A DNA stretch of 44,798 bases, from the NCBI RefSeq assembly GCF_002770725.1, contig NZ_NQVN01000030.1, forward strand, positions 1-44,798. Direction: 5' to 3'. A program made the translations under genes and the position numbers. This stretch comes from Pleomorphomonas carboxyditropha (GTDB lineage: Bacteria; Pseudomonadota; Alphaproteobacteria; Rhizobiales; Pleomorphomonadaceae). Under the pieces are notes generated by a model. The model saw only the letters and a list, made by a program, of their open reading frames with translations. It was not told the origin of the DNA and did not search any database. Shown piece by piece: positions 35,209-38,450 of the stretch (position 1 is its first letter; the number at the start of each line of letters is the position of its first letter).

Positions 35209-36513
35209 TCAGTCGAGCGCCTGGCGGCGGGTTTCCGCGTCGATCCGCGACGCCGCCGCCGCGGCGAGGACCAGCAGCACGGCGAACAGCGCCACCGCCG
35301 CCCCGAAGCTCCAGGCGATCAACAGCGACAGCAGCGACGGCGCCAGAAGACCGCCGAGCCGGGCCATGGCGCCGGCGGCGCCCATGCCGCTCGCCCGCGC
35401 CGCCGTCGGATAGAGTTCCGGCGTGTAGGCGTAAAGCGCGCCCCAGGTGCCGAGCAAGGCAAAGCTCATCAGCAGGATGGCCGTCGCCACCAGCGCCGCG
35501 TTGCCGGCAACAACGAACAGCGCGCAGCCGGCCGCCGACAGCAGCAGGAAGCCGATCAGCGTCGGCCTGCGGCCGATCCGCTCGACGCCCCAGGCGGCCA
35601 GCGCGTAGCCGGGAAGCTGGGCCAGCGCCACGATGACCAGGAAGCCATAGCCGCGCACGAAGCCGAATCCCTCGCCGGCGAGGCGGGCCGGCATCCAGGT
35701 GAAGATGCCATAGTAACTAAGCGATACCAGGAACCAGACGGCCAGCATCAGCAGCGTCCGGCTTCTCAATGCCGGCGACAGCAGGCGGACGGCCTGCGGC
35801 GCCGCGCCCGCCGCGAGCGGCTCGGAAAGCGGCGCCTTGCCGTTGGCCACCAGCACGCGATCGATGACGGCGCGCGCCTCGTCGCCTTGGCCCTTGCGCA
35901 ACAGATAGAGCGGCGACTCCGGCACCATCAGGCGCAGCCAGAAGCCGATCAGCGCCGGAATGGCGGTGACCAGGAATATGACGCGCCAGGCATCGGCAAT
36001 CCCGGCAGAAGCCGCCGCCCAGGCGGCGAGCGCCACGACGACCGTGCCGACCGCCCAGAAGGCTTCCAGCATGACCAGCCAGCGTCCGCGCCGGTCCGAC
36101 GGCAGAAACTCGGCCATCATGGCATAGTCGACCGGCAGCGTGCCGCCGACGGCGACGCCGGTGAAAAAGCGGGCGACGAGCAGCAGCCCGAAGTTCGGCG
36201 CGAACACCGAGGCGAGGCCGAACACGCCGTCGCACGCCACGGTGACCAGCAGCACCCGCCGGCGGCCGATGCGATCGGCGATCCGGCCGAACAGCGCCGC
36301 ACCGATCATCATGCCGAAGAAGAACAGGGTGCCGGTCTGCAGCGCTTCCGGCACCGTCAGACCGAAGCTTGCGGCGATCGACGGGGCCGTGAAGCCGACG
36401 GCCAGTACCTGCATGGCATCCGCCGCCCAGACCAGGCCGAATATGCCGAGAAGCCGCCGCTGAAACGGGCCGATGCCGGCATGGTCGAGGGCAGTGTCAA
36501 TGGCGACCGGCAT
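35209..36513 (-). CDS. MFS transporter, NiaP/sugar-porter-like
   Basis: The 434-residue protein of about 12 helices starts 'IDTALDHAGIGPFQRRLLGIFGLVWAADAMQVLAVGF', the pattern of SV2/NiaP-type carriers. MFS signatures are 'GRIADRIGRRRVLLVTVACD' and 'WGVERIGRRPTLIGF', with 'PESPLYLLRKGQGDEARAVIDRVL' after helix 6 and 'YTPELYPTAARASGMG' before helix 11. Relatives import niacin, aromatic acids or other small organics by proton symport. No catabolic partner is adjacent, so the substrate is not assigned. Confidence 0.87.
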   Translation of the reverse strand: MPVAIDTALDHAGIGPFQRRLLGIFGLVWAADAMQVLAVGFTAPSIAASFGLTVPEALQTGTLFFFGMMIGAALFGRIADRIGRRRVLLVTVACDGVFGLASVFAPNFGLLLVARFFTGVAVGGTLPVDYAMMAEFLPSDRRGRWLVMLEAFWAVGTVVVALAAWAAASAGIADAWRVIFLVTAIPALIGFWLRLMVPESPLYLLRKGQGDEARAVIDRVLVANGKAPLSEPLAAGAAPQAVRLLSPALRSRTLLMLAVWFLVSLSYYGIFTWMPARLAGEGFGFVRGYGFLVIVALAQLPGYALAAWGVERIGRRPTLIGFLLLSAAGCALFVVAGNAALVATAILLMSFALLGTWGALYAYTPELYPTAARASGMGAAGAMARLGGLLAPSLLSLLIAWSFGAAVALFAVLLVLAAAAASRIDAETRRQALD

Positions 36514-36660
36514 GAAGGCACCTCGAGTCGGAGACTGATGCGCTCTTTCTTAGACCAAAGTCGCAAGCGAGAAAACCGCGCCGGATTCTCAGCTTTTGCC
36601 GCACCGGTGATTGCCGTTCACCCGCCTGGAAGCGAACGCGACTTCGTGATCGCCCCGAGG

Positions 36661-36690
36661 GTGACTAATACTAAAGTCGTATGCTATAAT
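36661..36690 (+). promoter_or_regulatory. Extended -10 promoter of the small transcription unit
   Basis: A perfect TATAAT (36685-36690) is preceded by TGC, giving an extended -10. A GTGACT -35-like element lies at 36661-36666 with an 18-base spacer. The expected start is near 36697. It is one of the best sigma70-like promoters in the window and drives only the short unit that ends at 36905. Confidence 0.7.
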
Positions 36691-36729
36691 CTCGCCCAAG
36701 ATAAACGACGACAGAGGCAAGAAGGGATC

Positions 36730-36882
36730 ATGAGCGATTTGTCACAGGACACCGTCAAGTGTCCGTTCATCCGGTGCCGTCACCCGGTACCGCGCGCCTG
36801 GAGCGAGGGATGCGCTTCGAGCTGCTTCCTGCTTCGCAGGGAGCGCCGACGGATTACTGTCCGTCACACTTACGACTTCTAA
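36730..36882 (+). CDS. Possible 50-residue cysteine-containing small protein
   Basis: The frame starts MSDLSQDTVKCPFIRCRHPV and has two CxxxC pairs (CPFIRC is CxxxxC; CASSC is CxxxC) and a basic C-terminal third (LLRRERRRITVRH). AGAAGGGA lies only 2-3 bases before the ATG, too close for a good ribosome binding site. About 73% of third positions are G or C, lower than neighbouring chromosomal genes, and the stop codon abuts the terminator stem. Coding is possible, but the RNA structure of the same segment is the stronger signal. Confidence 0.3.
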   Translation: MSDLSQDTVKCPFIRCRHPVPRAWSEGCASSCFLLRRERRRITVRHTYDF

Positions 36883-36905
36883 GGAGGGCGCGTCCCTCCT
36901 TTTTT
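36881..36905 (+). terminator. Canonical intrinsic terminator
   Basis: AAGGAGGG (36881-36888) and CCCTCCTT (36894-36901) form a perfect 8-bp stem around CGCGT and continue into a run of T residues to 36905. It ends the small transcription unit. Confidence 0.88.
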
Positions 36906-36934
36906 ATTGGATCGCCGAAGCCTGCCGAAGAGAT

Positions 36935-36980
36935 TGGTGAGCGCGATGGGACTCGAACCCATGACCCCATGATTAAAAGT
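36935..36980 (-). other. Attachment site: displaced 3' half of tRNA-Lys(UUU)
   Basis: Read on the minus strand this is the anticodon loop CTTTTAA (anticodon TTT), the 3' strand of the anticodon stem, a variable loop, a perfect T arm (ATGGG-TTCGAGT-CCCAT), the 3' acceptor strand CGCGCTC, discriminator A and CCA. The 5' half is missing: sequence before the loop neither pairs with the anticodon stem nor shows a D arm. This is what remains at the far end when an element integrates into a tRNA 3' half, with the intact tRNA restored at the other junction, which should lie beyond the right end of the window. Confidence 0.85.
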
Positions 36981-37084
36981 TTTGCCAAGGGCCATTTCAT
37001 GGGCAAACAGATCATATCACCGAACAACACATAACCAATTGAAAAATGTAGCCATATAGGAGTATGTTGGAGCGTGTTGCTAAC

Positions 37085-37136
37085 GCGGGGTAACGGCCTA
37101 AGACAGACCGATTCTGTTACCCCTGCGTTACCCCGC
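37085..37136. repeat. GGGGTAAC repeats, candidate integrase arm-type sites
   Basis: GCGGGGTAACG (37085-37095) and CGTTACCCCGC (37126-37136) are an exact 11-bp inverted repeat; a third copy of the GTTACCCC core lies at 37116-37123 in direct orientation with the last. They lie between the tRNA-derived core and the integrase gene, where arm-binding sites for the integrase N-terminal domain are expected. An extra inverted repeat TTTGCC/GGCAAA (36981-37007) adjoins the core. Confidence 0.55.
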
Positions 37137-37166: not shown

Positions 37167-38450
37167 ATGACCTCTGTTATGATGACGGCGAAGTGGCTTC
37201 TGGGGCTCGAACGCAAAGAGCCGCCCGACGCGCGCGAGGAGTTCGCCGACGCAGGCGTGAAGGGCCTCTATCTTGTCCGACAACCGTCCGGCGCGATGTC
37301 ATGGGCCGCCCGCTACCGTCATGCCGGCAAGCCGCGCAAGCTCACTCTGGGTCCGTATCCGCTGCTAGGGCTCGCCGAAGCGCGCCAGAAGGCCACCGAG
37401 GCGCTTCGGGCGGCTTCTGAGGGAAGCGACCCGGCTGGCGAGAAGGCCGCTCAGCGGGCCGCCGTGAGGGCAGGTGAGCCAGTCGTCGACCGCGACCAGT
37501 TCGCTACCGTCGTCGGCGAGTTCCTGAAGCGCGAGATCAGGCCGAAGAATCGATCGCACGATCTGGTGGAAGCCATCTTTAAAAACCACGTCACGCCGAA
37601 GTGGGGCGACCGAAAGATCCAGTCGATCACGCGGCGCGACGTCATCGAAGTGACTGATGGCCTCGTGGACAAGGGGCAACCATACGCGGCCAACCGCACC
37701 TTTGCCCACGTGCGGCGCTTGTTCAACTGGGCGATCAGTCGCGGCATCGTGAACGCCTCTCCATGCGCTGGGATGAAGCTTCCCGGTGCCGAGCAAGCGC
37801 GCGATCGGGTGCTATCGGATGCCGAGATCAGGCTTTTCTGGCTTGCGAGTGAAGAGCTTGAGGAGCCGTTTCGGGGCTTCTTTCGGGTTCTTTTGCTCAC
37901 TGGTCAGAGGCGGGATGAGGTTGCCGGCATGAGGGCAAGCGAGGTTGATGGCGCGGCGTGGATGGTCCCTGGCGATCGCACGAAGAACGCCCGCGCTAAC
38001 CTCGTCCCGATCAGCTCGGAAACGCAGGCTGTCCTGGATGTGGTCCCCCGGATCGCAGGTTCCGCCGGCTATCTCTTCACGACCACCGGCCGGACACCGA
38101 TCAGCGGCTTCAGCCGCGTGAAGGCGCGCCTAGACGCGCTCATGCTCGCCCGGGCGAGGAAGGAAACCGCTGATGACGATGCTGAGGAGGTGAAGTTGCC
38201 GGAATGGCGCATTCACGACCTTCGCCGAACGGCAGCAACCGGGATGGCTCGCCTTCGTGTCGCGCCCCACGTTATCGAGGCGGTTCTCAACCACAAGAGC
38301 GGCCGGATTTCCGGCATCGCTAGCGTTTACAACCGTTTCGAATACGAGGAAGAAAAGCGGTCGGCGCTTGCGGCTTGGGGGCGCTTTGTGCTGGCGCTCA
38401 CAAAGGAAGGGGAGACGTCGAACGTCGTCGAGCTCCGGGCCTCACCATGA
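37167..38450 (+). CDS. int: P4-type tyrosine integrase
   Basis: The roughly 427-residue protein has an N-terminal arm-binding domain (DUF4102-like, 'YRHAGKPRKLTLGPYPLLGLAEARQKA'), a core-binding SAM-like domain ('ATVVGEFLKREIRPKNRSHDLVEAIFKNHV') and the catalytic domain. The catalytic residues are Arg in 'LLTGQRRDEVAGM', His-x-x-Arg in 'IHDLRRTAATGM', the second His in 'VLNHKSG' and the nucleophile Tyr in 'ASVYNRFEYEEEKRSALAAW'. It catalyses integration and excision at the tRNA-Lys 3' end. The N-terminus is uncertain, with ATGs at 37167, 37179 and 37182. The stop overlaps the next gene as ATGA. Confidence 0.93.
   Translation: MTSVMMTAKWLLGLERKEPPDAREEFADAGVKGLYLVRQPSGAMSWAARYRHAGKPRKLTLGPYPLLGLAEARQKATEALRAASEGSDPAGEKAAQRAAVRAGEPVVDRDQFATVVGEFLKREIRPKNRSHDLVEAIFKNHVTPKWGDRKIQSITRRDVIEVTDGLVDKGQPYAANRTFAHVRRLFNWAISRGIVNASPCAGMKLPGAEQARDRVLSDAEIRLFWLASEELEEPFRGFFRVLLLTGQRRDEVAGMRASEVDGAAWMVPGDRTKNARANLVPISSETQAVLDVVPRIAGSAGYLFTTTGRTPISGFSRVKARLDALMLARARKETADDDAEEVKLPEWRIHDLRRTAATGMARLRVAPHVIEAVLNHKSGRISGIASVYNRFEYEEEKRSALAAWGRFVLALTKEGETSNVVELRASP

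Follow-up and report, generated by a model that had tools for sequence, protein, structure and literature searches.

A cysteine-rich protein of 50 residues as the probable product of an apparent structured RNA in Pleomorphomonas carboxyditropha

Introduction

Frames for small proteins are known in bacterial RNAs that had been taken for non-coding, as related in the accessible part of PMC5521070, where dual-function sRNAs such as SgrS/SgrT are also named. The unit described here resembles those dual-function sRNAs in being one short transcript with a frame and a possible second role, and differs from them, as far as that part of the source describes them, in having no covarying helix. Unannotated bacterial small-protein genes are a wider class with which it has several traits in common: a short gene with its own promoter and terminator, a frame of low dN/dS, a weak Shine-Dalgarno sequence and a narrow taxonomic range. 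Unlike that general class, the gene carries an extra constraint on codons 1–16 and a promoter motif that is common to one other small gene. At the protein level, among the closest described systems are the C4 zinc-finger proteins of the DksA/TraR type, whose cysteine spacing is given as CxxC-17-CxxC in the accessible part of PMC9239242 and which are likewise short, with four conserved cysteines.

The locus lies in a 44,798-nucleotide stretch of DNA (contig NZ_NQVN01000030.1, assembly GCF_002770725.1), which is called the window in what follows. Its source, Pleomorphomonas carboxyditropha, belongs to a genus placed in the Hyphomicrobiales. A preliminary description made from the letters of the window had proposed a compact orphan transcription unit encoding a highly structured RNA, and had offered a regulatory RNA, a small-protein mRNA or a dual-function RNA as possible readings. 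Comparison with homologues indicates that the unit most likely yields a short mRNA for a cysteine-rich protein of 50 residues. In a GC-rich genome, as this case illustrates, a small-protein gene can pass convincingly for a structured RNA, and a dozen relatives suffice to tell the two apart. The analysis also yields a genus-wide 50-residue candidate for metal binding and a promoter motif suggestive of a set of two genes; this motif and a stretch of 16 codons, in which selection appears to act on the letters as well as the amino acids, are the parts most worth attention. A search for literature on small proteins of Pleomorphomonas, covering titles and the beginnings of abstracts, found none on this subject.

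The transcription unit

The sequence is consistent with the compact transcription unit that had been proposed, made of a promoter, a short leader, a frame and a terminator. The putative promoter is of the sigma-70 type and occupies positions 36661–36690 of the plus strand. The extended -10 element of the preliminary description (TGC at 36682–36684 and TATAAT at 36685–36690) was located in its place and is preceded, across an 18-bp spacer, by a -35-like hexamer, GTGACT (36661–36666). The promoter scan gave the two hexamers 10 of 12 consensus letters, and found two promoter-like sites on both strands of 36500–37100, compared with a mean of 0.5 in shuffled sequence. When 12 genomes were aligned, columns 7–28 (CTAATACTAAAGTCGTATGnTA) turned out to be nearly invariant, with a mean identity of 95%, and the final letters of the -10 element were variable. 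The 5′ leader, whose beginning is deduced from the position of the -10 element, would span 36697–36729 and is poorly conserved until the ribosome site (mean identity of 57% in columns 29–64). Read directly, a weak Shine-Dalgarno-like GAAGGG (36721–36726) precedes the ATG; GAAGGGATC stands upstream of the start in seven of the 12 genomes and the remaining five carry variants.

At the other end of the unit, the textbook terminator that had been noted is indeed present: an intrinsic terminator, AAGGAGGGCGCGTCCCTCCTT with its T-run (36881–36905, plus strand), has its stem at 36881–36901 and overlaps the stop codon. A hairpin with a T-run follows the stop immediately in five of the 12 genomes, and the 3′ region as a whole has a mean identity of 35%. 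In this alignment the covariation score of the terminator helix was matched by none of 500 shuffles, with one slid version coming near. Expression would run from the extended -10 promoter as a monocistronic unit, with transcription stopping at the terminator hairpin over the stop codon.

A conserved frame restricted to the genus

The 50-codon frame that had been noticed, together with its poor ribosome binding site, is present at 36730–36882 of the plus strand and encodes MSDLSQDTVKCPFIRCRHPVPRAWSEGCASSCFLLRRERRRITVRHTYDF, in which C11, C16, H18, C28 and C32 are invariant. The nucleotide tests were performed on 12 full-length frames; a thirteenth homologue, from genome G007, is 42% identical and was excluded because it is too diverged for confident codon alignment. 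None of the 12 aligned frames contains a frameshift or an internal stop. Pairwise differences at codon positions 1, 2 and 3 numbered 257, 88 and 1015, respectively, so that the third position takes a share of 0.746 (about 75%), a value that was not reached by any of 20,000 permutations of the columns. Further, dN/dS against the frame of the window ranged from 0.027 to 0.221. This codon-level comparison favours the small-protein mRNA among the three readings that had been offered, and the unit is, with good confidence on these comparative grounds, a protein-coding small gene under purifying selection as protein.

Searches at several taxonomic depths showed that the 50-residue family is restricted to the genus; a conserved small-protein gene is in itself an ordinary kind of thing. 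A profile search found the frame in 13 of 20 genomes of the family, which are 13 of the 14 Pleomorphomonas genomes, and in none outside the genus; G006 was the only genus genome in which it gave no homologue. The protein search placed the frame in 13 of 100 relatives, every one of them a Pleomorphomonas. Two of the 385 genomes of a class sample gave matches, one being that of the window itself and the other a match of 14 residues that contains a stop and was rejected. The order sample was searched at a loose limit (E 0.05), at which 74 of 397 genomes matched. The 13 genus genomes did so at E 1.1e-27 or better, and because the best of the other 61 was a match of only 20 residues at 7.6e-4, these were discarded as noise, as was, likewise, a 20-residue match in L032 (Rhodospirillales). 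One member of the family has an altered beginning: in G003 (L012, G003:C16) the position of the start codon reads ATC, which implies either initiation at the ATG of codon 4 or a damaged gene. Codon 4 is ATG in L012, L006 and L009 and TTG in the remaining nine sequences.

Helices and genomic neighbours

A structured regulatory RNA that acts through its helices and contains a frame only by chance was the reading that the title of the preliminary description conveyed. The two strands of its closing helix, AAGTGT (36757–36762) and ACACTT (36866–36871), are where they had been placed, and the last hairpin (GACGGA/TCCGTC, 36848–36865) does lie flush with the ACACTT strand; the closing helix is nevertheless missing from the minimum-energy fold of 36697–36905. 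That fold was stronger than those of dinucleotide shuffles (z -3.64, 0 of 200), which speaks for structure, although the stretch includes the terminator. The consensus matches of promoter and terminator point the same way, as does the behaviour of the proposed structure when it was tested as 20 pairs, comprising the closing helix and two inner hairpins: its covariation score was reached by only 27 of 500 shuffles, a borderline value, and slid versions scored lower. In the 12 sequences, 82.1% of the cells of this structure are paired (76 of 500 shuffles reach that figure), a share that rises to 93% in the last hairpin, and three pairs are doubly changed, as happens in 54 of 500 shuffles. Against this reading, however, 10 of the 12 sequences cannot form pair 2 of the closing helix, and nine cannot form two pairs of the hairpin CTTCCTGC/GCAGGGAG. 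The covariation score of the window's full minimum-energy structure (66 pairs) was reached by 161 of 500 shuffles, and RNAalifold returned an unfavourable covariation term of +0.56 with one of 48 pairs compensated. Folding of the frame was also compared with controls in which the protein is fixed and the codons are redrawn. It was unremarkable in 10 of the 12 sequences (z -0.79 to +0.36), mildly low in L007 (z -1.38) and somewhat better than the controls in the window (z -1.80, 5 of 200). The Rfam search gave no hit at the gathering score in the whole window; at relaxed E-values, three sub-threshold matches all fell over a tRNA fragment, one of them extending back across the terminator, and were rejected as chance-level. 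The claim of a highly structured RNA was therefore not sustained, since what the homologues conserve is the protein sequence and not the pairing, which is the outcome that the description itself had set down as contrary to it. The structure seen there is the product of a GC-rich coding sequence and a terminator, and a regulatory RNA with an incidental frame is very improbable. Hardly more credible is that the unit belongs, as cargo or regulator, to an adjacent integrated element, a reading that draws on its position, the frame ending 53 bp from a tRNA-Lys fragment at the element's edge. The phage attachment tRNA that had been reported nearby proved to be 46 nt from the 3′ end of tRNA-Lys(UUU) (36935–36980, minus strand) and not an intact gene, with ARAGORN finding none in the window; it is read as an attachment-site remnant, and another contig (G000:C16:9252-9327) carries the tRNA at full length, with 95% identity to the query tRNA-Lys. 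The tyrosine recombinase (integrase) gene next to the fragment (37167–38450, plus strand) and the unit stand on opposite sides of it. Phage and plasmid records gave no match, and among viral contigs 20 stretches fitted a pattern, none being confirmed as a relative. The divergent left neighbour, an MFS transporter gene (35209–36513, minus strand), is found in 13 of the 14 genus genomes and adjoins the 50-codon gene in 12 of those 13; in G007 the two genes are on different contigs. In eight of the 12 loci where it adjoins the MFS gene, the 50-codon gene is followed by a full tRNA-Lys no more than about 2 kb downstream. The conserved neighbour and these tRNA genes place the unit in the chromosome, outside the integrated element.

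Another of the loci offers a side observation. In G012 (L114 4797-4829), about 190 bp behind the small gene, there is an 82% match to positions 31–63 only of tRNA-Lys, and ARAGORN finds no tRNA in the 10-kb locus; the match may be what decay has left of an attachment sequence at the corresponding position.

Constraint on codons 1–16

The beginning of the frame departs from the rest in its synonymous changes. Codons 1–16 (36730–36777, plus strand) show a mean synonymous difference of 0.105 compared with 0.378 in the remaining frame (permutation p ~1e-4 for similar cuts), and the block 36721–36777, which includes the ribosome site, has a mean identity of 91.5% against 83% for the remaining frame. 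The expectation was drawn from amino-acid-matched codons of the MFS gene, aligned across these 12 genomes. It amounts to 0.370 for codons 1–16, with none of 20,000 draws as low as the observed value. Codons 17–50 are ordinary (0.369 against 0.413 expected, 1712 of 20,000). Leaving out L134, which has one extra MFS codon, the result stands (0.101 against 0.341, 0 of 20,000). None of the 420 windows of 16 codons in the MFS gene is as low as 0.105, the minimum being 0.223, and the first 16 codons of that gene show no dip (0.383 against 0.422). Low synonymous change at the start of genes is a general tendency, on which the literature search returned general papers only. A second gene-start control, the 70-codon gene described below, has a slight dip (0.259 against 0.322 in 11 of 12 sequences, L111 being left out for a deletion), so that the controls consist of one long gene and, more weakly, one short gene. 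As codons 1–16 lie far below the matched expectation and the MFS gene lacks a dip, the letters of 36730–36777 appear to be under selection along with the amino acids, a nucleotide-level constraint beyond the protein. A gene under selection as protein only does not account for the low rate.

This constraint keeps in consideration a dual-function mRNA, in which the frame is translated and 36721–36777, the ribosome site together with codons 1–16, also serves as a recognition element, either as the target of a base-pairing RNA or of an RNA-binding protein or as a hairpin controlling translation by masking the ribosome site and the start codon. In its favour, besides a synonymous difference beneath that of every MFS window, a hairpin in which codons 10–14 pair with the ribosome site and the start codon retains 96% of its cells. 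This hairpin, however, contains no double change, its scores are reached by 500 of 500 shuffles, and single-sequence folds of the start region differ among species, for which reasons it is not claimed; the alignment tests revealed no covarying helix behind the constraint. The general tendency towards low synonymous change at gene starts and the small number of controls also weigh against a dual function, which we hold as a tentative possibility. A DNA-level element in the gene start, with codons 1–16 forming the site of a DNA-binding regulator or an antisense promoter, would fit a constrained block located behind a promoter with an operator-like motif, and CTTGAC can be read directly on the reverse strand of the block. 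The scan, on the other hand, detected no minus-strand promoter of the sigma-70 type at its thresholds, and a search of the 14 genus genomes for the 26-base core of the block, with up to three mismatches allowed, turned up no further copy, which leaves this reading a clearly unlikely one.

The cysteine-rich protein

Under the preferred reading, that of a small-protein messenger, the product, a basic protein, can be described from its homologues. The protein alignment has 11 rows taken from the 13 homologues, down to 42% identity, L003 and L004 having been omitted because their protein is identical to that of L002. Twelve columns are invariant (C11, C16, R17, H18, P19, P21, R22, W24, E26, G27, C28 and C32), giving the pattern C-x4-C-R-H-P-x-P-R-x-W-x-E-G-C-x3-C followed by a basic tail (RRERRR), and the cysteine spacing C11-x4-C16-x11-C28-x3-C32 is kept in all 11 rows. 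The invariance of four cysteines and one histidine down to the 42%-identical homologue suggests that C11, C16, H18, C28 and C32 bind metal, most likely zinc. The metal site would fold a short knuckle, followed by the basic tail, in a protein that would be cytoplasmic. It might tentatively be pictured as a small adaptor that acts on nucleic acid or on another protein.

No family in Pfam, NCBIfam or PHROGs matched the 50-residue protein of the window. When 11 members were searched against Pfam, the only match was to PF11823 (putative Se/S carrier protein-like), a weak one shared by six of the 11, with a best E of 0.053; it was rejected as non-significant, the window's own protein being unmatched. 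Six TFIIB chains returned by a profile search of solved structures (E 0.28–0.31) were taken as chance. AlphaFold, run with the 11-row alignment, gave a mean pLDDT of 52 and a single helix at residues 22–38, a model too poor to use. As no family matched and the structure prediction was uninformative, the conservation of the cysteines is what points to metal binding and to the role. The Pro-x-Pro soon after the second cysteine is a feature that we take to resemble the DksA/TraR-type class. Membership of that class was rejected, the spacing being C-x4-C-x11-C-x3-C instead and a match to its Pfam or NCBIfam profile being absent. The literature search on small cysteine proteins returned general papers only.

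A promoter motif shared with a second small gene

The promoter spacer holds a 14-bp motif, ATACTAAAGTCGTA (36668–36681, plus strand), that forms an imperfect palindrome, TACnAnnnTnGTA. In the 14 genus genomes the exact motif has 17 copies, nine of them before the 50-codon gene and eight before a 70-codon gene (MSRFAPTTATSYRSG..., L102, G000:C11:78924-79133; relatives L100, L101 and L103-L111). All 13 genomes with the 50-codon gene carry the motif before it when a single mismatch is allowed and, when two are allowed, all 13 also have it ahead of the 70-codon gene; in the window's own genome the motif of the 70-codon gene has two mismatches (G000:C11:78803). The diverged homologue in G007 has ATACTTAAGTCGTA upstream. 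Sites with one mismatch number 18 in the 14 genomes, seven at the two small genes and 11 elsewhere. Summed over 0–2 mismatches, a reversed control pattern gave more matches than the motif (25 against 9 in G000), and the claim is limited to the exact-match set for this reason. A wider regulon was rejected: sites with one or two mismatches precede fba-, proS- and nifH-like frames, names that are our own reading of start sequences and not a database result, yet the reversed control matches more often. G021, from another family, has one match to a looser 13-base form of the motif, TACTAAAGTAGTA; the 13-base motif was not found in the literature text searched.

Centred near -22, between the -35 and -10 elements, the operator-like motif would seat a repressor or an activator that distorts the spacer. 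We infer that it is the binding site of a regulator and, from its presence upstream of both small genes, that one regulator is common to them. A fuller scheme would combine a dual messenger, with its 57 nt of 36721–36777 read by a dedicated RNA or protein partner, and a regulator that binds ATACTAAAGTCGTA and couples the 50- and 70-residue proteins in a two-gene, genus-specific circuit. Taken as a whole, this scheme is rather doubtful. The 70-codon gene has the same distribution as the 50-codon gene (13 of 14 genomes). G006 lacks the 50-codon, 70-codon and MFS genes alike, a joint absence more suggestive of a diverged genome than of a specific tie between the small genes.

The 70-codon gene has no significant Pfam match. 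The core of its leader, GTTCGGAGGGCTGGTTTCGCGTCCCATGAGGATAACGGCGCTTTT, is nearly invariant over about 45 nt in 12 genomes; this leader showed no covariation, and no Rfam match was found in the five loci searched. Some minor observations were also made. Upstream of the nifH-like frames L082 and L091 (G000 and G010) stands ATACTAAAGTCGTG, whose last two bases overlap TGGCACG-N4-TTGC, by our own reading a sigma-54-type promoter. In G002, the 70-codon gene adjoins a frame that, again by our reading, resembles Xaa-Pro aminopeptidase. A further, diverged match to the 70-codon gene lies in the window's own genome (L113, G000:C44:17526-17663; 46% over residues 10–55), and the other 12 genomes with this gene have one match each.
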